Of a stretch of DNA of 64,000 nt, positions 276 through 25,886 are shown piece after piece; position 1 is the first letter of the stretch; each line of letters opens with the position of its first letter. The notes under the pieces were generated by a model. That model was not told where the DNA came from and made no database searches. It was given only the letters and a program-made list of their open reading frames with translations. Source of the DNA: Protonemura montana (Eukaryota; Arthropoda; Insecta; Plecoptera; Nemouridae); contig OX387603.1 in assembly GCA_947568835.1 (NCBI GenBank), forward strand, positions 2,395,701 through 2,459,700, read 5' to 3'. A program made the translations under genes and the position numbers.

Positions 276-3200
276 CTTTCCCAATAATGCCGCGAGGGTC
301 TCCGATTCTGATTCTGGATCGGCCTCCCCCCGCGCAACACGGTAAACCCGCAGGTCGTCCTCCGCAAGCGTTCGCAGGTGAAAAAACCTGTTGCCAGCCG
401 CGTCCTTGCCGAGGTCACGATGGTCACGCAGGTCCACGGCCTCCATCGTGGCACACATGTTGATTAGCACCGGGTGCTTGCTCTGTCGGCAAGAAAACAC
501 GGCCAATTGTTACACACCTTCCATGATTCATTGATAATAATTATGCACTTTTATTGGCTAAGCCTTTTTTTACACGTACATTTTCAGATGCAAATAAGAA
601 AAAACTCTGACCTAAACAAGTTCCTTAGTCATTAATGGGGTTTAACGACGAACTGTTTTAACATCTGGTCATGCGGCACTGGTCTAATAGCATTGATGAA
701 TGAGTGGATGATGATGAGGATGAACCTAACCTAGTCTAGAAGGGAGGAGGGGAAACCTGGTGCCGGCACGTAGCCTACTCCTGTCGAAGAACAAGGGGAC
801 CACTGGCTTAACGTCCCTTCCTAAGGACGGTACAACTCGAACAACATGATTCTTCCACAAATCCATGCTGTTGAGAGGTTGATAAGCAAGGCGAGTGAAG
901 TTGCTGTACTAACTTTCATCCTTCAACCTCTCTCCCGAACAGAACTGGTCATGTGTATGACGGTCACCCATCCAATACCTGACTCAGCGCAGTGTTGCTT
1001 AACTTTCATCCCTCCAACCTCTCTCCCGAAGTGAATTGGTCATGTGTATGACAGTCACCCGCCCAATAACTGACTCAGCGCAGTGTTACTGGAATCTGGA
1101 TTTTAGCATGGTGTTACGAGGGAATGTATTTGAAAATAGAATAGATCTTCAGTAAACTTTTAGCCACAAGTACTTGTAAAAAGAATGAATGCCAAAACAA
1201 CGGTAAAAGAATAGGAGAAGATGAAAGAAGGAATCACAGCGTTCCAAGTTAGGAATAGCCGATTGCGTCCAATGAAAGAGGTGTGCTGTTTTGGCTGCTT
1301 CCTCGTCCACACCAGACGGAAGACATGGACAAGAAAGCCTAAACGACTTACACAACTAGTAATCTGTTGCAATCAGCCACTTCCACCCTTGTGAATTGTG
1401 TTTCCCATCTTTCCAATTCAATTCAAACAATACAATAACTTGACAACAGCGCCTGCAGCGGAGCTAAACACTTACGAGCATGGAGTCGCAGAGTGCTTTG
1501 AAGATCAGAACTCGATGAACGAATGTTATTTCATGCAAGTTTTTTGTCTCCAATGGGTTGTTTTCACCGACTGTCTTCCAGAAAGACGGGTGGATATCGA
1601 ATACCTGTGAAATGAACACAAACTTAATTGTCACATTCTAGTTTGTAATAAAATGTACCATCAGCAGCTCTAGCATCTGGATAAAACTGGTTGTCAGAGT
1701 TATTTGCTTCGGGATAAGGAAAGCACAACAAATTTTATGATTGCAGTGCAATAATACAAACGTTCAAATATTATTATTTCAAAGATTACAATACTGATAA
1801 GAAAGTCATTATCGAATCATGACTTCTTCAAACTTGATTTTGTCCTCCCCAATGTCACCTTTTTGAGAGAGAGAAAATCAATTCATTTAAAAATCAATAG
1901 CTATCCATAGATATGGTTGACCATTAAGGTCTAGCTTACTGATCTATATTTAATACAATTTGTTATTAATATTATTTATGATTATGGTTATGTAATGAAC
2001 ACATTGTAATTATGAATTGTTGTTGTACAAATGGTTGTGTAAGATGCAAATTGATGATTTAAGAATGGCAGGAAATATTGAATCAAATATTGAGAGCGAG
2101 ATGAAGAAACGCTTGAGGAAGTTAGTGAAAAACGTCGGTATTCCTCCCCGAGCACCGACCAGCCACCGCCCACTACCTCCCATTTTCCGACAGGGATCTG
2201 ATATCGTCTGGACAAGTCGGCGATGCAGGGCTGGTATATCAACAACATATCTACAACAACCAACTCTAAAACAAATAAATCGCATTGAAGCAAGTGTGAA
2301 AACCGCAACGTTGCCGCCATCACTCACAGTGTCTTTGTTGCTGGGACGGAGTTCGTACCACGAGTACCATCGGCTCACTTTCTGCTTCAGTCGCGGCATC
2401 CAAACCTCGTACGGCATCGACGGGATTTCCTGGATACGTCGCCGCTCGCATTCCGTGCTTGACAAGGAGGCATACCGTCAATTGTCTCATTACGACTTGG
2501 CAGATGGGAAACACTTATTTTAGAGACAGTCACAATGTACACGACCAGTTTTGTTCAAGACAAGGAATCTATTTTGGGTTTTTTTTCAAGTTGGCAAGTT
2601 GTAACTACCTGTCCTCATGACTCAAAAGCCTAATTCTGAAAACAACTATTTCAAACAAGTTGATTTGCAATTTGCCAAAGGGCTGGAATAACGAGTATGT
2701 TTTTTATTATTATGAACACTATAACCGTGTCTCAAAAATCGCAAAAACAAGTACGTTGATTAGGAAATTGAAGGGAGAGTACGGAACTTACAGAGCGGAG
2801 AGTGGCAGTCCGCAATAGTGGGAATTATTTGTCTAACATTTTGGTTGTTGCCTTCATCACTGCAGAGAACAGACTCCAGTGGTAAAGGCAAAAAAAACGC
2901 TAAGTTCCGTACTCTCGCTTTAATTTCCCAACCAATGCATTCGTTATTTCAAACAAAGGTTTTTTTTTAATGCTAAGTAAAAACGAGTAATTTTCCTGAT
3001 GTTTTGCAACTCTTACCTGCTACATAACAGTTAAAACTTTTAAATTAGTTGTTTTTACTTAGCTAAAAAATCAGACAGTTTTTAGCATGAGCAGCCTCCG
3101 AGCCAGATTTAAACACAGCACAAGGGAGACAAGGCAGTAGCCAGCTTGGTGCAAGCCTTTTAACTTTCAACTCTTGTGCGTTTTTGTAAACTGCGGGCAA

Positions 3201-5800
3201 CTGAGCACTCACCAAAGAAGAGCCGTCATTACGTTATTCAGCATGTCCGAGCATTGCGGAAAGCTAAACATCCTCTCGAACTGGTACACCGAGAAGTCGA
3301 TCATTTGCAGCCATATCTTAGCTGTCTGTAGGAGACTCATCAATTCGGGGAACTGCGGATAGAAACAGAATTTCAATGAGAGAATCAGGTTAAAAATTAC
3401 TTTTTTTTATGAGTTATGAGTCTGTTAATACTGTTAAATGATCAACATATTTACAGACAGCTTTGTTCTAGTGAGATTAAAGTAACGTTTATAATGTAAC
3501 GCCGGGGTGGACGTTGGGTGGGGAAAAAGGCAATAGTTAAGTTATAGTCATGGTTTTATTGATTACACGTTAAACCCTGGTTATAATTATACATCCTAAA
3601 TGGTTACTATTGTTCTACGCAGAGAGCGGTGGGTTTAGTTCCGTGGTAGTTGAAGCTCTGCCGGTCCGAGGCGACGCTAGACGTCGTGAGACCTGCATGT
3701 ATTCTGCTGATGCGTGCACTTGATGCAAGATCATCAGTTTAGGCTATAAGGAGTGTGTCAGTCTGACTCTAGGTTAGCTATAGTGTATATCGACTTGAGC
3801 ATAGTATAGTGGGGTATGGCTAGGAAAAGTGTAACTTTGTTACAGTCGCCCCTCCATTGAAAAAGGAAAAGTGTTTTGAAAACTTTTCCGTGCTGGTAGA
3901 AGCAAGACTTGAGAGAGAAAAAACAATGCAAGGTAAGTAAAAAAAAGGTCTGATGGTGACACATTCCCTAACACCTCTTCACTGTCAAACTATTGCTTAG
4001 TAACCTTTGCAAATAAACCTACTATTCAATGATACCATTCCAAAGGAACCTAAAATTCAAAACATAGAACTTACAACAAACCATTACTACAAATGAATTA
4101 CAGGCAAGTAGTAAATCGTAATCTTAGAACTAACTATAACACTAGACAATTTGTTGTACATTTTGTAGAATAGTTTAGCAATTGAAATTTTCGCAAGTTA
4201 CAATTTATTGACTTCAATTATTGACACCTTAATTTAACAATGCAAAGGTACAAATGGAAGAACCTAAAAAATACAACAAAAGAATACCTAAAATGTCCAT
4301 GATTATAAATGTCTTTTAGTTTGGTTCATGGGTGAACTAGTTCGGAATTATGTTAACAGGTATGCCGCTTTGAAGTTAAGGTTAAAGTTAACAAATCGGA
4401 AATCGAATCAAAACAAAATTGGCAGTTGAACGTTGAAGTTAAAGGAAAGTTGCAAAAGGTAAATTTAAAACATGGAACGAGTTGAAGGGATGACGCACAC
4501 GAGTTGAGTTGACACGACTATTGGTTGTTAAGTTATTGTTATGGCACACGTTGGTTGTCAATGAGCTATCATAGTTGAATGACACATGACAGGTAGGCAC
4601 ACTTGGTGTTTGATTAACAGCTTGCGCACACGTGGGACTGAATCTGACAGTTGACATCTGTTACCATCACATGGGTAGCGCACGTGGTTTCGACGACTTC
4701 TGAAGCGACAGGTTGGTGTGTCGTGTTATCTAGTAGGCACACTCGGTGTTTAATTACTGGTGTCCTCGGTTGTCCCATGGCTGTTGCTCACCAATGTATT
4801 CTGCTCTTACAATGGTAGGCCAGGAAGAAATTTGCAGGCCAGCGGGGGAGCTGCCCGAGACAACACTAAGTTGTATGTTAAAATGCATCACGAGAAGTAG
4901 CCGAGGCGGGCTTAAGAAACATGTTCACGAGCGGAGCAGGCGCCGATCTAGTGCGCCTGCCTCCACCCACACCCTCAGCGAATTACCCACATTCGACAGG
5001 TGTACAAGCTAAAAGGTCTGCTGAAGAAGAAAGACTGGGAATACGAGAAGTAGCCGAGGCGGGCTTAAGAAACATGTTCACGAGCGGAGCAGGCCCCGCT
5101 TCAAAGCCCCAAGGACCCTCTGTTCGTCAACAAGGACCCTCTGTTCGTCAGCAAGGAAAGAAGTTATGGAAATGGTTTCGTTCAAAACCCAAGGCCCCAC
5201 GGACCCTCTGTTCGTCAGCAAGGAAAGAAGTTATGGAAATGGTTTCGTTCAAAACCCAAGGAGATATAGTTGGCGGTGGATCCTCGCAACGATCATAGCT
5301 ACGGGATGGTGATGGCTATCACGGAGCGCAAGGACCTCGCCTTCAGTTCCATCTGTTGTTGCACTCGTACTTCAAAGTCCCCGACGTGAGGGCGACCACG
5401 TTGCTGCTGTCTTCTAAGGCGAGTGGTACCGTGTTCGAGTGATGAGGACGTCTCATGGATGCGGTTTTCGCGTGGATGTCGGATGTTGACGGATAATTTG
5501 TGTGTGCCCTTGGTGTCGTTAGAACTCGTGTGGTTCGCAGGAGGGTTGGTTGGGTTGGCGGATGACCTCTTTCGATCCTGTAACAATATGAGTTTGCGGC
5601 AGTTAATTGTTCCTTTTACCTTCAATAACATTTTAAGGCTATGAACTGAACTGGTTTTTATTAAATTCATGGATGTTGATTAGTTCTTATTGTACCAGGT
5701 GTCTTAAAGTTGATGGTCATTGCTAAATTATTATTGAACCTTTATAGATTATAGATACATACTCTACTTATATATATATTTTTACTATTATTATTATTAA

Positions 5801-5860
<60 letters not shown>

Positions 5861-5917
5861 TTTTTTTTTTTTTTTTAATTTTTTTTTTTTTTATTATTAT
5901 TATTATTGTTATTATTG

Positions 5918-5964
<47 letters not shown>

Positions 5965-8900
5965 TTTTTTTATTTATTTATTTTTTTTTTATAGATAAGA
6001 CGTAAGGTCTGAAATATAAGAATGTGTGACAGGTAATGTTCAATAACGTAAGCGTTAGTTACTGCATATAAAGGACTGGCTGTGTGATAGCAGATTATAT
6101 AGCCTAGTATCATGTTTATCTTTGCGAAGGTCTCTTCGCGACGGTTCTCATACACGTCAGCATTCTTAACAGTCAGTCAGTTAGCAAAATGCTGAACCGC
6201 ATGGGAAACAAGCCAGGAGCAGTTTACATGCATACTCATCAAAGGTATGGTATCACGTGTACATGGTGGTAAGTGTGCCGACATAGTGTATTAGTTTGAC
6301 TCGCATTAGGGATATGAATCGGACGATATGAATCCGATTCTTGCACTATCTCCTCCATGATAGGCTTATGGTGGTGTGGAATTCTAAATGGATATTGAGC
6401 TACTGGTTTAGAGTCTCCTGTCTCGATATGGTGCTCGGCAATGCTTGTATAACCTAACTTAGAATTAGATTCTATCATTTCTAAGAGGAAACCGACAGTA
6501 ATTTCGCTTACTCCCAAGCAACTGAGAGAAGATGTGCCAGTGAAGCGAATCAGGAAGGTGTTACCTGAAGAAGAAGGAGGGTACAAGATCACAATGCCTC
6601 AAGGAATAACCCCACGCACAAAGCAGATTTTAGCAAAGCAGGAAAATATAGTTGGGAATACTAAAACGGTGTTTCAGCGGCTGGGTGAAAGTTCGGTTTC
6701 AAGCACGACATGTGTGGAGGAGCCAAAAGTCACTTTCTTAGGAATGGTGCCATCTAAGGCTGGCGCTGGCGGGTCATCTGTATTCCACCGGCTTGGCGGG
6801 AAGCGGAAGTCCGAGATCACTTAAAAAACGCCTTACTGTTGTGTCCAAGAAATCTGCTGTCATGAGCCGACTTGGAGCAGATGAAGAAGAAGAAGAATGT
6901 TTTTTTCTTCGTTTCTTCATCTAAATGGTCTAGCTTAAAATGTTTGGTTAAATCTACGGGTTCCTTAGGTGTGTCCCCTCGTAGAGCGTAACCTATCCCT
7001 GCTATTATCTTTGGGTTCTCATTTTCTATAGGTCTAAGGTCAATGGTTTCTAATTGGTATACTTTCCCTAGTCTCGTGTTCTTTGGAATCGTCACGGCGT
7101 CCCGCGAAAGATTCATCACCCTTATTTGAGCCTTCCTATCTACTCTTGATTTAAATAGTACTCGAGATACGGCCAAACCACTTATTTGCAATGGTTCCGG
7201 TTCTACTATCTGGTCCCCAAGAGTAGCTACTTCCTGAGTTCCTTCTAGCAACATTTCGCAAAGTGGAGGTACCACGATCTCTAAGCGGTTACGAATAAAA
7301 CACGCGCGCTGTGTTTCACTTGCCTGGTTTCTATCTTTAATTGGTAACTCTTTAGTTATGGTAGTAGTCTTAATGCTATGGTTTTCTTTAGATTGGTTTC
7401 TATCTTTAATTGGTAACTCTTTAGTTATGGTAGTAGTCTTAATGCTATGGCTTTCTTTAGATTGGTTTCTATCTTTAATTGGTAACTCTTTAGTTATGGT
7501 AGTAGTCTTAATGCTATGGCTTTCTTTAGATTGGTTTCTATCTTTAATTGGTAACTCTTTAGTTATGGTAGTAGTCTTAATGCTATGGCTTTCTTTAGAT
7601 TGGTTTCTATCTTTAATTGGTAACTCTTTAGTTATGGTAGTAGTCTTAATGCTATGGCTTTCTTTAGATTGGTTTCTATCTTTAATTGGTAACTCTTTAG
7701 TTATGGTAGTAGTCTTAATGCTATCCCCCTCCCTTACTCTATTGGTTTCCCCATTACTTATTAGAATAGCGTTCCGTTCATGGTTATACTAATTTCTCCT
7801 GGATTAACTATAACCTTAGTGTCTGCCTGTACCTTATCTTGCCTTTCCACCATACCGACGCCTGTGTGATTCCAGCGTTTATTTCCGCTCTACTTTCAGC
7901 CCTACTTCCCTCCCTACTAGCAGCCCTACTTTCAACATTATTATTAAATTCCGGGAGGACCATTTCTTGTTCGTCTGCTTGCGACATGGTGGGAAAATTT
8001 TAATATCACAAAATTACAAGCTTCACAACTCACCCAGAATAATGTTGATCGCCCACATTTTAACCATCGTGTTGAACCGTCGTGTTGAATCCGCAGCACG
8101 CCAACCCAGAATAATGTTGATCGCCCCCATGTTGACCATCGTGTTGAATGCAGAGCTGGTAACGGCAACTGGATTCGTTTCGGCCGTTGTCCGTCGTTTG
8201 TTCTTTATGTTCCTGTTCTTTTCTTTTTTTTTTTTTTTTCTTTTCTTGTTTTCTTTAATGTTGTCTTGAAATGTTTTAACCCTTCGGTAACTTCACTGCC
8301 ACCGGTTCGAAAACCAATCGAACACTAAAGTTACGCACAATAGTATGACGAGAAAAGAGACAAAAAAAAATTTGGTTTTTTGCGTGACCGAACTTTAAAG
8401 GCGCGTGAAAAAATCGAAATCGTACCGTTGCCACCAATGTAACGCCGGGGTGGACGTTGGGTGGGGAAAAAGGCAATAGTTAAGTTATAGTCATGGTTTT
8501 ATTGATTACACGTTAAACCCTGGTTATAATTATACATCCTAAATGATGGTTACTATTGTTCTACGCAGAGAGCGGTGGGTTTAGTTCCGTGGTAGTTGAA
8601 GCTCTGCCGGTCCGAGGCGACGCTAGACGTCGTGAGACCTGCATGTATTCTGCTGATGCGTGCACTTGATGCAAGATCATCAGTTTAGGCTATAAGGAGT
8701 GTGTCAGTCTGACTCTAGGTTAGCTATAGTGTATATCGACTTGAGCATAGTATAGTGGGGTATGGCTAGGAAAAGTGTAACTTTGTTACAATAAGAACAA
8801 CTATAACCAGGTCATATTGAAATATGGCTTACTTGCTTTACAGTTGAACACCATACAAACACTCAAATGTTACGCCATTTTTTCAATAGTTAAAAGCTTT

Positions 8901-20000: not shown

Positions 20001-23000
20001 ATTGCAAGAAGACCGCCGCTGCCCACTAAGATGTGATTGTCCTCGAGGCCTCGATTGTCAGCCGTGGCTGGCGTAGGCGATGCCGAGACCACTTGGATGT
20101 TCCAGTGAGGGTTGGCCAGCAGGAGCTTCTTCAGGTTGCGAAGGTCTCGCATGCACTGCCAGTCTTCCTGCGGCCGCAAAGACAAGAGACATTTATGGCA
20201 GGGGTTGGGCAGAGGCGGTTTTATGCTCTTGTTTCAAGTTTTCAAATGTGCCATCGAATAAGTGATGGCTGACCATGGAAAATAGATTTTGGTAAAATAT
20301 AATTGTCTCGTTAAGTTGATTGATTGATGGCACCCTATTCACAACATCCAGCCTCTTGGCACCCTATTCACAACATCCAGCCTCTTGGCACCCTATTCAC
20401 AATATCCAGCCTCTTGGCATCCTATTCACAATATCCAGCCTCTTGCCACCCTATTCACAATATCCAGCCTCTTGGCACCCTATTCACAATATCCAGCCTC
20501 TTGCCACCTTATTCGCAATACATTGCACATGCAACACATTCTCCTGTTTTTCAACCCAAGCTTTGCTAGAGTAACTGAATTTTGAGTCATGCGGTGTCCA
20601 GCACATACCAGGTCAGTCTTGCGGGAGAGCCACTGGACGAGCTGTTTCTCGGTCATGAGTGGAGATACGTAGGACCCGTCCCGCTCTGCAGGCCCACATT
20701 GAGCCTGGATGGCACGACGGACTAACTCAGGGTGCAGATGACGCATCAGCCGAGTAGCAGGCACAAGCTGGTCGGGGAGAATACAGAGGTCCTGTGGGCG
20801 GAAAGGTCAGAGACAAACAACGTTTATTTTCATATTAAGAAAATGCCTTCAACACAACCTTTCAATCTCGAAAAACTCCAATTTTGACGTTGAATGCATT
20901 TAATGCTGTGAAATATGATTTAAATCGCAAACACTTGCAATATACAAAGTATTTTGTTATTGCCAACACTACTACCTTATCAAAATTTGGTGCCTAAATG
21001 TTTGAAATTTCATTTTGTTGGAAATTCATTTTTATATTTTTAAATTGATCAGTGGTGTTTGACGACGCACTGGTTTAACAACGAACCCTGTGAAACAGGT
21101 CTAATGGCGTCGGTGAATGAGTAGACTTTGATGAACCTAACCTAGCCTAGAAGGGAGGAGGGGAAACCCGGTGCCGGCGCGTAGCCTACTCCTGTCGAAG
21201 AGCACCAAGGGGACCACTGGCTTAACGTCCCTTCCAAAGGACGGTACAACGCGAACAACAGGATTCCTCCACAAATCCATGCTGTCGAGAGGTTGATAAG
21301 CAAGGCGAGTGAAGTTGCTGTACTAACTTTCATCCCTCCAACCTCTCTCCCGAACAGAACTGGTCATGTGTATGATGGTCACCCATCCAATGCCTGACCC
21401 AGTGCAGTGTTGTTTAACTTCCGTGATCTCACGAGGACCGTTGTTTCTAACACGCCAAACCATTATAAAATAGGTTGTCAATCGTGGACTTACGTTGCTG
21501 TAATCATCTCCCACCATGTCCGCTGAGCACGTTGGGTAAGTGTTTTCTGCAAATAAAAAACAATTATGAATCAGTTATACATATACAGACAACTAACATC
21601 ACTAAATGCATCAGACGGATTAGATACGTAACGCATGGAATGAACCCCGTTTTTATTTACATGCAGTTAGGCTTACGAGTATTTTCCGACGAGAACGAAA
21701 ATGGTTGATTGTCCCGGATGTTGAGATAGGCGATTCCCAGCACAAAGAAGAAGATGCAGGCGACAAGGAGTAGAACCATCGAGATCGCCTGGGAGTTACT
21801 GAATAGCCGCGGCGCTTCTTCTGTCTTGAACTGTTGGGTTATGTCGCTAAAGAGATGGGACATGTCACAAAATTACAAAGTTAAAGGTGTGGTTTATCGG
21901 TGTGTCGGTACCAAGTGGCATTAGATTGGCAAAGTTGAACCATCTTTATAAAGACCAGAAAATGTATAATATTGCTAAAACTTTCAATGCAAGCTCTGAA
22001 AATATGAATTTATATTGAATCTACAAAACCCTTTTTCGATGTTTGTCGGTGCTTTATTGAAACTCTGTGAACTTTAAAATGGCTAAGATAATAAATACGA
22101 AAACAAACGACGGTTTGCTGTGGAAAGATCGCCGTCAACTGTTTCTAAAAGTCCCCCTCAAAGCAAAACTAGGTGTTAAATCTGCACTGAATATTATGAA
22201 AAACAGATAAAACTCACAGCAAGAAACTTAACATTTACTAAAAGTAAGCTTTTATTTTTATAAAGTTGTGTGGTCCCATTTGAAAAGTGGCTCGTGTCTT
22301 CCTTGCCATCCAATTCTCTATGAATCTCAACCGAGTCGCAAAGTCCAACACATGAAAATGAGGCCATCAAGATTACGGCTTTTAAATATGAATCATTAGC
22401 ATCTGACGCCTGTATTCGATCCAAACTAATAATAAATAAGAATAAATAAATAAATGTGTAGGTCATTGCTGATTTCTATTGCCTGATGCTAAAGCCAGCA
22501 GACTTCTCTCACCTGGTGTCAGGAGATCCATTATCACTGTTGTGAGCTGAGATTGGATAAAGTCGCGAATTTCGGGCAATGAAATCATCGAACTCAAAGG
22601 CTTTCTCTTTAAACAGTTTGGATGTTTGCGGTAACAAACCTGGAATAATAAATGTAATAATGAGACAGTTAAGGGTTTACATTGAATGATGATTGATTGA
22701 GCTGGAACATATTGAAGAAGAGCATCACATAGAAAACTTACTTTCAGTTTTTCGGCTTTCACGGCTGGCCTTCGCAGCCAAACGACGAGTGAAATCTGAC
22801 ACAAAGGGGCTCTCTGCTTTCGGGGTTGCCTGTTTACGATACGACAACAGGCTGCTAACTTGACTATCATTTCCATTTAACTCCGAGAGCCGAGGCGAGT
22901 GTTTCGCTGTGTTGGGCGATTCTACGGAGTCCGAATCAGAACCATTCTCGTCATATGAGACTCGCGATGGGCTTGTCTTTCTTGTTGTTGTAATTGACAT

Positions 23001-23372
23001 TGAAAAACGTCCACGATTTTTTGCTGGAGGCTCAGCCACTTTTGGAGGTGAATATGACACTGGTGAAGCAAATGTTTGCCTACGAGTATTGCGCGTTTTG
23101 ACAGCAGGTGGTGGTGGCGGCATGCTTTTCGCCGCAATGCTTCTTCCATGTTTGTCATTGTCGCTCTCCTCGCCGGAGCTATACTGAGAGAGCGATAATG
23201 ATTTCCGAGTTTTCGTAGCACGTGGTGCCGGAGACGTTGATTTTCCACTCAAATTATTCTCTAGTTTCTTAATTAGTAAGCCGCGGGTTGAACTAGTGAC
23301 TGGAATCGTAATGCCGATTTCTTTTAGTTTTTTAGAAATCTCGGCGTCCGACCAGTCGCTAAACGACGCCAT
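14051..23372 (-). CDS. LEMD3: LEMD3/MAN1 inner nuclear membrane protein
   Basis: Eleven exons: 23372-22742, 22639-22513, 21846-21677, 21546-21494, 20791-20609, 20167-19921, 19257-19045, 17230-17077, 15310-15170, 14721-14537 and 14202-14051. They total 2256 nt, exactly 752 codons, so 751 residues. Residues 1-45 form the LEM domain ([20 protein letters not shown]), which in this family binds BAF. A Ser/Pro/basic linker follows. One membrane segment lies near residues 273-296 ([20 protein letters not shown]) and the second near 454-470. The MAN1-Src1 C-terminal region contains [14 protein letters not shown] and [17 protein letters not shown]. The last exons form the UHM/RRM-like fold ([40 protein letters not shown]), which in vertebrate MAN1 binds receptor-regulated Smads and damps BMP/TGF-beta signalling. 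Human LEMD3 is longer, mainly in the N-terminal linker. All introns are GT-AG. An in-frame ATG also lies 33 nt upstream at 23405, but the conserved MASFSDW start fits the family better. Several introns carry SINEs, a MITE and 29-bp satellite arrays. Confidence 0.95.
14838..14925 (-). repeat. 29-bp satellite, about three units
   Basis: The unit is CACCCTATTCACAATATCCA plus GCCTCTTGG, here in inverse orientation. In LEMD3 intron 9. Confidence 0.85.
15717..16159. mobile_element. MITE A, copy 1 (443 bp, TIR AATAGGGAAATCTC)
   Basis: Inverted ends AATAGGGAAATCTCCTTAA and its inverse bound a non-coding body with three TGACGTCA palindromes (15912, 15963, 15974). The target duplication may be TA, as in Tc1/mariner-type elements. 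It lies in LEMD3 intron 8. Confidence 0.85.
17347..17572. mobile_element. Hairpin MITE family B, right half
   Basis: Contains GGAAATTTAGTAGCCCTTTA, AGCATTCAAAACCCAGTTGA and the terminal GATAAATCAAGTAGACTTGA then GTCTAAAAACCAT. The left arm is missing. In LEMD3 intron 7. Confidence 0.72.
17590..17740 (+). pseudogene. LINE C-terminal fragment
   Basis: The frame reads [20 protein letters not shown] then [11 protein letters not shown] and stops. 'FNSLPESI...FK..LK' is the usual end of non-LTR reverse transcriptases. In LEMD3 intron 7. Confidence 0.6.
18480..18698 (+). mobile_element. LINE 3' end with (AAAT)n tail
   Basis: The frame reads [20 protein letters not shown] then [20 protein letters not shown] and stops, followed by a short 3' UTR and an ATAAATAAATAAAT tail. 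A second copy lies at 57645. In LEMD3 intron 7. Confidence 0.75.
18703..18990 (-). mobile_element. tRNA-headed SINE, nearly full length
   Basis: On the minus strand it has a 5' flank module, a tRNA-like part with B box GGGGTTCGTGTCCCCG, TTTGAGACG, then the tail module GCATTGCAAGCGTTTGCAA type. It is in LEMD3 intron 7. Confidence 0.8.
19385..19800 (+). mobile_element. 5S-rRNA-headed SINE with duplicated promoter-proximal segment
   Basis: AAGTTAAGCAACACTGCGCT and GGATGGGTGACC mark the 5S-like part. The segment GGGAGAGAGGTTGGAGGGAT occurs twice, before and after it. The core GTACCGTCCTTCGGAAGGGA and a purine/AT-rich tail follow. It sits in LEMD3 intron 6. Confidence 0.85.
20328..20523 (+). repeat. 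29-bp satellite, about six to seven units
   Basis: Near-identical units of the same 29-bp sequence, in LEMD3 intron 5. Because 29 is not a multiple of three, all three frames read through as shifted repeats; the open frames here are artefacts. Confidence 0.92.
20885..20995 (-). mobile_element. tRNA-headed SINE tail fragment
   Basis: TTTAAATCGCAAACACTTGC and the following TTTTGTTATTGCCAACACTA resemble the tail module in minus orientation. It is degenerate, in LEMD3 intron 4. Confidence 0.55.
21047..21462 (-). mobile_element. 5S-rRNA-headed SINE, full length
   Basis: On the minus strand the head reads GGTTTGGCGTGTTAGAAAC then CTCGTGAGATCACGGAAGTT, continuing to GGATGGGTGACC and the family core. 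It lies 31 bp from LEMD3 exon 4, in intron 4. Confidence 0.88.
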
Positions 23373-23703
23373 TTTTCTACGGTGTGGTGGAGTCACTGCT
23401 ACCAACCTTACACGAACAAAACAAAAGTTTAAAACTTGCAGGCAAGTCTCCGAATATATTCGTTATCGCCTTTTCTTTCCTACAAAAAATATTAAAGCAA
23501 TGCAAGTATACATATATTAGATAAATTTTATTCCTGGCTTCTTGCAGTATTATTATTCCTAAAAAAAACCTAAAATATTCAACATAAGTGTGTGCCTCAC
23601 TATTATTTTTATTTGTGACCCATTGTTGCAAGAGGCGCCATCATTTTCAGACCAGACTCTACCTAGAGTAAGCAGATCTCAGGGATATTGTAGGCAACAC
23701 TAA
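23373..23703. promoter_or_regulatory. Short head-to-head intergenic region between LEMD3 and HSF-like gene
   Basis: Only 331 bp separate the LEMD3 start codon (minus) from the HSF-type start codon (plus), so both 5' UTRs and core promoters must share this interval unless 5'-UTR introns exist. This is the usual layout of a bidirectional promoter. I see no clear TATA box in a convincing position. The promoter role is inferred from geometry. Confidence 0.5.
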
Positions 23704-25886
23704 ATGGATAAAATGTCATTAGAATCACGAAACAGAGGGCGGAAGTTCCCTCAGAAGTTGTGGGAAGCTGTTACTTACAATGAAGATGGCTTAATATATT
23801 GGAGCTCATCTGGAAAATCCATAATCTTTCGGTATGATATGGTAAAAAAATATTCCTCACAAGAGAGCAATTCCTTGTTTCATACTAAAAGTATGTCCAG
23901 TTTCATACGTCTTCTGAATAGCTATGGGTTTCGCAAAGTGAAAAACGCAGAGAGAGACTTGCATGGAAAACCAAGCGCAGCTCTGCATCTGCAGTATTCT
24001 AGGGAATTCTTTCAGAAGGGCCGAGCTGACTTGCTTAGCTTGATAGAGCGAAACCCCAGAACACCCAAAGCCGAAGAATGGAAGAGCAAAATAGATTCTA
24101 TGCGGAGAAGCAAATTAAATTTCAGAGAGGTAAATATACAAACAATAGTTACTGTTCAAAATTAGCACACTAGATGTGGTATTCAAAATGTTAACAATGC
24201 ACCTAAATGTTCTCTTTCAGCAAGTTGTGAAAAACAAGCTTGAAATTGTTGACAGAGCTCGCAAGAATTATGCAAAAGTAATAGCAAATTCTTTGAAGGC
24301 CTATAAAAATGGCGATAAAGGTACCTACTATAGTTATTTTTGTCATTGAAAATATATCCCTTCTATTTGGTCAAGTATCTTTATAATTTATTTTTTTATT
24401 TTTAAATCTAGGTTTTGAGGATTGAATGAGTTGTGAGTCAACGATGGCAGGGCCCAATTGAAAAATATATGCAGAGACAATGTCAATGCAATTGATATAT
24501 TTTTACAGTCAGTACAGGTAGGAAGGCGGTACCTTCCTATTGTTAACATTGAGTTTCAATTGGGCTGTGGTAGAGATAACGTACGACAACTCATTCAATA
24601 TTTTTACACAATGAACCTTGTGTTCACAACATTTTTTAGCCCAACATTACATAGGTATGAAAAAAAAAGTACTTGCTTTGCACTGTGATTGCATTTGGCT
24701 TTGCATCTCCAGCAGAAGTAACAATTTTTCATTGAGTTTATCGATAAGTTTCACTGGTGTGTTTGTCACTTAGGTGATGCACCATTTACCTTCTATTTCA
24801 GGTAATTTTCTCAAAAAATCAATGACGACAGAAGGAATAAAACATCTTTGCGAGAATACAGATGATACTATTGTGCATGTAACATCTCGGGTTGTCGTTC
24901 TGAAAGTTCAACAAAATCAAGGCAGGTGAATTATGTTTTTTTTCAAGCAAGTAAAAAAGATGCGTACATTTAACTTGAAATCACCTCGAGTCGTGAAGTT
25001 TTATTGAAGATGCTAGTAATGCAACATCCGATTGAGGAGCCCAATGAGTACTTCAGTTACAGAGCAGTTTGCATGCCACAAAAAATAGTAAAAATTACCC
25101 CACTTCAAGGGGCCCGTCTTGGACACACGGTCCTTGAATTGAACAGGTGAGGCGTGGAACAGGGAATCCAGAACTACAACTCACCCAATATAAATAAAAA
25201 CTGTCAGAATCTCATGGAAATAGGGTCAGTGTGTTGGATGCTTTCAAAAACCTAACGATTAACACCGGCCCAAAAGACATTTGCTGAAAAATATCTAAAA
25301 AACACCACTAACCACTGCAATAAGTTATGATGGTTTTTAGACTCATGTCTGCTTGATTTATCCTTAGCACTAGTTTTAAGAAAAACTATATGAAATGGGT
25401 TTTGAATGCTAAGTGAAGGGCAACTACTTGACTACTTGACTTGCCTACTTGACTGCTCTAACCCTTGATGAAGTATCTAGTACACGTTACGAAACGTTGG
25501 GAAATTTAGTTGTCCTTTACTTAGCATTCAAAACCCATTTCAACTAGTTTTTCTTATAACTGCAATAAGTTATTCTGAATAGATCCTTAAGTCCAAATTT
25601 AATAACTAAGAAACTGTGGAAGCATAAGAAATAATGGCAATGCAGAAAACAAACTAGAGTTAAAATAACAAAAAACAGTTAATACTAGTTAAACTGTCAT
25701 TCCAATATGTGTCATTAATATATCTTGTTTGTAGATCTCAGCATATATACACTAGAAGACGCTCCGAAGAGAAAGCAGAAATTTGACCATCTTATTGGAG
25801 AATGGAACTCTTCAGAAATTGTGGACGACGACGTGCCAATCTGCGTCGACAAAGAAGAAGTCGTTGAGTACGAAGAGAAGTTTTAA
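23704..25886 (+). CDS. HSF-type DNA-binding domain protein (HSF5/HSFY-like)
   Basis: Four exons (23704-24129, 24221-24320, 24802-24921, 25735-25886) give 798 nt and 265 residues. Residues 10-120 are a heat-shock-factor winged-helix domain: RKFPQKLWEAV at the start, a GKSIIF strand, then SMSSFIRLLNSYGFRKV, which matches the recognition helix that inserts into DNA. The form resembles HSF5/HSFY rather than HSF1. After it comes a charged helix (VVKNKLEIVDRARKNYAKVI), then an acidic tail (VDDDVPICVDKEEVVEYEEK). I see no long heptad trimerisation region of the HSF1 kind. Intron 3 appears to use a GC donor (CAAG then GCAGGT). The nearby GT four bases on would shift frame and stop after about 17 codons, whereas the GC site opens the whole last exon. 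An AATAAA at 26691-26696 could end a roughly 0.8-kb 3' UTR. The gene converges on TRIM23. Domain assignment is strong; the subfamily is uncertain. Confidence 0.85.
25331..25560. mobile_element. Hairpin MITE family B
   Basis: Begins ATGGTTTTTAGACTCATGTC and TTATCCTTAGCACTAGTTTT; the second arm starts at about 25494 with CGTTGGGAAATTTAGTTGTC. In intron 3 of the HSF-like gene. Confidence 0.78.

Follow-up and report, generated by a model that had tools for sequence, protein, structure and literature searches.

Antisense pieces of spliced host mRNAs in a non-autonomous Gypsy-type LTR element of the stonefly Protonemura montana

In the present study, we analyzed a 64,000-nucleotide stretch of the 258-Mb genome of Protonemura montana (C2:2395701-2459700; hereafter the window, to whose first letter the positions below refer unless another contig is named). 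An LTR element occupies 3495-8790 on the minus strand and is flanked by two copies of the target-site duplication ATAA, which were read in the sequence at 3491..3494 (left) and 8791..8794 (right). The sequence and an alignment of the LTRs placed the 3' LTR (TGTAAC...GTTACA) at 3495..3844 and the 5' LTR at 8438..8790, both on the minus strand. Judging by position and composition, 3845..3860, adjoining the 3' LTR, is a putative polypurine tract (minus-strand reading AATGGAGGGGCGAC). Beside the 5' LTR, 8424..8437, with the minus-strand reading TTGGTGGCAACG..., is the probable primer-binding site. The LTR pair showed 0 substitutions over 350 aligned bases and one 3-bp indel. The substitution-free LTRs and the ATAA on both sides agreed with the view of the first-pass annotation that the element had moved recently. 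Elsewhere in the window, a LEM domain and an HSF-type DNA-binding domain marked host genes or exons at 22728-23462 (minus strand) and 23704-24162 (plus strand).

The direction of the element was taken from the ORFs of a related copy on contig C13. The ORFs and an alignment to this copy located the start of gag (MSQADEQEMV...) at 7808..7999 on the minus strand. On the same strand, the ORF list contained an open frame (6817..7788) that runs through a series of 69-bp repeats and the post-protease region into antisense host sequence. Alignment with the C13 copy delimited this tandem array (7325..7724, minus strand), which lies in the coding frame; the 69-bp repeat of the protease-RT coding region is present in 5.8 copies in the window and about 15 on C13 (L038, ~3147-4167). 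A remnant of the RT start (6337..6462, minus strand) aligned at 99% to the C13 copy (L038:4641-4766), and a 3' region at 4965..4993 (minus strand), ending in ACATT, was found by alignment to be common to three older relatives (L026, L028, and L029). The locus had at first been described as a split retroelement polyprotein. The polyprotein was indeed interrupted, but the damage went beyond a split: compared with the C13 copy, the window copy also lacked env and the greater part of both gag-protease and RT-integrase. With most of gag-pol and env missing, the element is non-autonomous, as had been supposed.

The results of the classification indicated that the window element is a Gypsy-type LTR element. 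The window copy itself has the paired TG...CA LTRs and the short target duplication of the Gypsy/Metaviridae group, and Pfam gave no significant match on its minus-strand element frames. The gag-protease-RT-RNaseH-integrase order was observed in the C13 relative by Pfam on separate natural ORFs; its gag, RT, RNase H, and integrase-core matches exceeded the curated cut-offs, and its protease match was weak (Asp_protease_2, 8.3e-4, under the curated cut-off). In this relative, the gag, RT/RNaseH/integrase, and Baculo_F env frames are open and lie in pieces separated by nested elements. An autonomous errantivirus-like element has its own gag, pol, and env, and the window copy does not. The C13 locus (C13:17698501-17724500, L038-L040) measures 25 kb from LTR to LTR and is an env-bearing Gypsy element broken by two nested elements, namely, a second Gypsy element, whose gag has DUF7041, and a non-LTR element encoding endonuclease, RT, and RNase H. 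With both of these lying inside, the 25-kb spacing was rejected as the sign of a giant element. LTR pairs spaced similarly to this locus were also found on C6 and C5.

The first-pass annotation had recognized a host-like segment at 6495-6900. The host-derived stretch was real, but alignment set its limits and its match at 6476-6825 plus 6840-6897. Both parts lie on the plus strand, antisense to the element, and match a C19orf47-like cDNA. The first (6476..6825) corresponds to CDS 510-859 and contains an exon junction at 6645/6646, and the second (6840..6897) corresponds to CDS 1293-1350. Between them, the aligned plus-strand bases 6826..6839 comprise most of a shared 10-nt insertion and a few host bases, and the junction of an internal loss lies at about 6840. 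On the left, alignment revealed a 13-nt filler at the junction (6463..6475, AATTAGATTCTAT), which is identical in all three host-bearing copies. The MPxGxTPRT phrase and the three V-[F/M]-x-R-L-G motifs noticed earlier were all present. The plus-strand ORF 6453-6824 reads ...MPQGITPRT...VFQRLG...VFHRLG, and the third motif (VMSRLG, at about 6860) is in a different frame from the first two because the window copy lost about 430 nt internally; the lost sequence is still present in the C16 and C5 copies. The host ORF in the window matched DUF5577 in Pfam (9.2e-14), and no solved-structure match was found for it up to an E of 1.

The parent of this insert lies on the minus strand of contig C3 (L035) and was modeled by hand as a gene of six exons and 454 residues. 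It was observed that the insert matched the parent exon by exon, which provided the single intron-containing host gene, with exons joined in the insert, that reverse-transcribed capture had been expected to leave. The spliced parent model contained SAM_4 (1.9e-20) followed by DUF5577 (4.9e-13) in Pfam. We take this architecture to be that of C19orf47, and to that extent it supports the proposed C19orf47-type identity. The gene adjoining the parent is presumably phosphoglycerate mutase. A literature search of titles and abstract openings found no paper on the function of C19orf47, and Drosophila CG16812 is named as its counterpart in an excerpt of one report (PMC11021027).

The insert separates the post-protease region from the RT start, as first noted; these regions are contiguous in the C13 copy save for about 44 element bases, which are missing in the host-bearing copies. 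At the right junction, the window copy shows an overlap of 2 nt, and its element side differs by a few bases from that of the C16 and C5 copies. The left junction has the 13-nt filler and not microhomology, and a 9-nt match to parent CDS 390-398 is suggestive only. The 3' end of the insert falls before the stop codon, and neither a poly(A) tract nor a flanking target duplication was observed. These features bear on the possibility that LINE-type machinery made a processed pseudogene that landed inside the element. The non-LTR element nested in the C13 copy, with its endonuclease and RT, indicates that this genome has, or once had, machinery of that kind. However, the missing poly(A) and target duplication, the premature 3' end, and an insertion site that was deleted and not duplicated already contradict this route, which we consider extremely unlikely. 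A second possibility is the repair of a double-strand break, in which a broken genomic element would have been end-joined with host cDNA and later transcribed and mobilized. The loss of about 44 bp, the 13-nt filler, the minimal overlap, and the lack of a target duplication are what such a patch would leave. We know of no orientation rule for patch repair, so the antisense orientation of the insert poses no difficulty for it.

The search for the same insert elsewhere in the genome succeeded, since copies with identical host end points were found at C16:22.68 Mb and C5:17.94 Mb in addition to the window. Apart from small gaps, the C16 and C5 copies follow CDS 510-1350 throughout, and introns were exactly removed at three junctions in these two copies and at one in the window. 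The 13-nt filler, A676G, C857A, and the 10-nt insertion are common to all three copies. The C16 and C5 copies alone have 627C and 674C, at both of which the window retains the parent base, and they also share 1068G, 1159T, and an extra A, all within the stretch that the window copy has lost. The shared end points, filler, and changes suggested that the C19orf47-like piece was most likely captured once, before the three copies split, and then spread. The C16 copy is flanked by the target duplication CCAG, and its LTRs differ at 0 of 353 positions. The different 4-bp duplications (ATAA and CCAG) and the substitution-free LTR pairs indicated that the window and C16 copies arose by separate recent integrations. 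Segmental duplication was rejected, since the target duplications differ and the match between the window and C16 ends at the LTR ends. Among the copies with both flanks, the insert was present in three of eight, and 47 bp lay between the flanks in the other five (these counts are lower bounds from genome searches, and the letters of the empty site were checked in the C13 copy); a normal retroelement coding part was rejected on this basis. The C5 copy has undergone rearrangement and showed no LTR on its left side. At this locus (L037, C5:17938001-17948000), the host-bearing copy is joined to a further defective copy of the same family, and the target duplications do not match; nested insertion followed by LTR-LTR recombination would account for this junction. 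Both Gypsy families are represented by many closely spaced copies in C16:22.58-22.83 Mb, which has the look of an element graveyard or possibly of a small-RNA cluster.

The first-pass annotation described a single captured fragment, and we found helicase, epimerase, GILT, and second-family captures beyond it. A fragment of a superfamily-1 helicase mRNA was aligned at 4989..5051 on the plus strand, antisense to the element, with exons joined at 4999/5000. Its parent lies at C1:16713277-16713332 (L072). The piece has microhomologies at both ends, ACATT (4989-4993, 5 nt) and AGAAGT (5046-5051, 6 nt). At the left join, the older relatives L026, L028, and L029 read ...TTACCCACATT-ACTATGC, and the window reads ...TTACCCACATT-CGACAG-GTGTACAAGC, in which CGACAG is the end of one exon of the C1 gene and GTGTACAAGC is the start of the next; in the genome, an intron separates the two. 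The element stretch to the right of the helicase piece is a duplicate of one to its left, and the piece was found in the window copy only. The C1 parent matched AAA_12 (2.2e-18, Pfam) and lies near the UPF1, SEN1, and DNA2 helicases. Its last exon may be MOV10-like; no MOV10 chain was among the PDB matches listed. An aldose 1-epimerase exon fragment (65 bp, 89% to C3:18753801) was aligned at 5328..5391, again on the plus strand and antisense. This piece also occurs in the C13 (L040), C16 (L036), and C5 (L012) copies and is older than the helicase piece. In addition, the older relatives L026, L028, and L029 carry a piece of a GILT exon from C2 (about 100 bp, 90-93%). The epimerase and GILT pieces each lie within a single exon, so these alone are no proof of an mRNA source. 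A tentative host piece at 5110..5157 on the plus strand (48 bp, 94% by alignment) corresponds to a 21-nt repeat at C2:11182001-11182500, a coding-like stretch of QQGPSVR repeats on which Pfam found no match. The plus strand at 5390-5490 reads GDHVAAVF*GEWYRVRVMRTSHGCGFRVDV and has a Tudor-like look; this reading was dropped, as Pfam gave no match and the genome search found no host source.

The second env-bearing Gypsy family is distinct from the first, with env identities of 41% and 33% and an integrase identity of 52%. It holds CDS ~993-1127 of the same C19orf47-like gene, spanning the exon 4/5 junction. This piece lies directly downstream of env in seven copies that are 14-20% diverged from the parent. 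The two C19orf47-like captures took different fragments, lie at different places in different element families, and have diverged to different degrees. The five identified captures, namely, the main C19orf47-like, helicase, epimerase, GILT, and second-family C19orf47-like pieces, were all antisense to the element (5/5, or 6/6 with the tentative repeat piece; the counts are small and the hunt for captures was non-exhaustive). The coding strand was taken from ORFs in both families and from the LTR strand in the GILT-bearing relatives, and the direction of the second family came from ORFs in two copies and co-linear alignment in the rest. Assuming random orientation, five of five in the same direction would occur by chance once in 32 (one-sided) or once in 16 (two-sided), so an antisense bias beyond chance is suggestive only. 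The searches treat both strands alike, and thus the antisense excess is not a search effect. Excerpts of a plant review state that captured genes usually lie in the sense of gag-pol and describe most antisense sequence found between pol and the 3' LTR as being of unknown origin (PMC7264820).

Taken together, the window element most probably derives from an env-bearing (errantivirus-like) Gypsy element through internal deletions that left it non-autonomous; it would have acquired pieces of spliced host mRNAs by template switching of the reverse transcriptase and then been re-mobilized. Joined exons, shared host ends, target duplications, insert-free copies, and the microhomology of the helicase junctions were seen directly. 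As in LTR-mediated retrocopies, exons are joined in the C19orf47-like, helicase, and second-family pieces. The junction microsimilarity of such retrocopies was found for the helicase piece; for the C19orf47-like piece, the window copy shows it on one side only, at 2 nt, and the other side has filler. In the usual model of LTR-mediated retroposition, as outlined in part of a published account, switching between element RNA and mRNA takes place during first-strand synthesis (PMC5408686). Because such minus-strand switching would yield sense inserts, template switching in its simplest form does not account for five captures that are all antisense. A jump onto mRNA during plus-strand synthesis would be the simplest route to an antisense insert. 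In this scheme, a host mRNA would be co-packaged in the particle, and the polymerase, during plus-strand synthesis, would slip at a few matching bases from the element DNA onto the mRNA. Copying of the mRNA would yield the antisense insert before the polymerase slipped back onto the element. The chimera would have retained the ends needed for mobilization, with proteins supplied by intact relatives. The microhomology on both sides of the helicase piece and the back-jump that duplicated element sequence fit polymerase switching better than break repair, and five patches in the same orientation would not be expected from the latter. Break repair with cDNA, which we consider unlikely, remains the rival for the main C19orf47-like piece. 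With named host sources and several readable junctions, switching during plus-strand synthesis as a regular capture route is testable in one genome.

The captured pieces are most likely passengers without function. No coding use was seen in any of the three C19orf47-like copies, in all of which the host frame hits a stop at the shared lesion beside the 10-nt insertion; reading on in one frame meets 2 stops in the window, 12 in C16, and 12 in C5. Conservation of the second-family host bit was tested as a sign of function and was unconvincing, since its divergence was about equal to that of the flanks: of 21 non-independent pairs, 14 had a host bit less diverged than both flanks and 7 did not, and the margins were small. 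Frame reading and second-family divergence thus gave no convincing evidence of function. A different view is that the antisense pieces are kept because they would give antisense or small RNA against host genes, to the benefit of the element or through co-option by the host. The capture of one gene by two families, the antisense orientation of all five captures, and the origin of one piece in a superfamily-1 helicase gene are consistent with this view. So are excerpts of a Plutella study that links antisense cDNA with truncated retrotransposon sequence to silencing of the parent (PMC9674220), and siRNA from captured pieces in maize is cited in part of a review (PMC13317346). The second-family divergence and the fact that the window copy has itself shed about 430 nt of captured sequence argue against it, and we regard it as highly improbable. 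The broader proposal from the sequences, that env-bearing Gypsy elements here repeatedly store antisense pieces of host mRNAs, mostly downstream of pol, and that their RNA would pair with and lower the parent mRNAs, has similarly little probability. The stored pieces would perhaps include RNA-silencing helicase genes. If true, the elements would carry an antisense library aimed at the host, and with five antisense captures in one genome, the action of the pieces on their parent genes is testable.

Host-gene capture by LTR elements is already known; what is unusual here is the uniform antisense orientation, the remobilization, and the repeated capture of one gene. Tan and co-workers reportedly observed pieces from more than one parent gene in LTR-mediated retroposition. 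The partial account of that process resembles our case in the spliced host mRNA inside an LTR element and the microsimilarity at the joins (PMC5408686). In contrast, the present inserts are antisense, the chimera was remobilized and is flanked by target duplications of its own, and two families captured one and the same gene. Maize Bs1, as excerpted in a review, likewise holds several host-gene pieces in one LTR element, none at full length (PMC13317346). Unlike Bs1, the present element belongs to an animal, env-bearing Gypsy lineage, and its main piece shows no chimeric frame because the host frame is disrupted by a stop and by frameshifts. The antisense sequences in the excerpts of the plant review are also derived from coding sequence and lie antisense in the 3' part of Gypsy elements; those excerpts report no host source for most of them, whereas the genes are identified here and the pieces are short. 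Errantivirus-like Gypsy elements, which we take to be grouped by their Baculovirus-F-type envelope, are represented by the C13 relative with its gag, pol, and Baculo_F env, whereas the window copy lacks env and most of gag-pol. In the literature searched, which lay largely outside the subscription journals, antisense capture of host mRNA by an animal LTR element was otherwise met only in Plutella. There, according to the excerpted report, Pxyfem of Plutella xylostella consists of antisense PxyMasc retrocopies that, like the pieces described here, combine a partial antisense cDNA with truncated LTR-element sequence in many copies; Pxyfem makes small RNAs matching its parent gene, whereas the present pieces are known from their sequence (PMC9674220).
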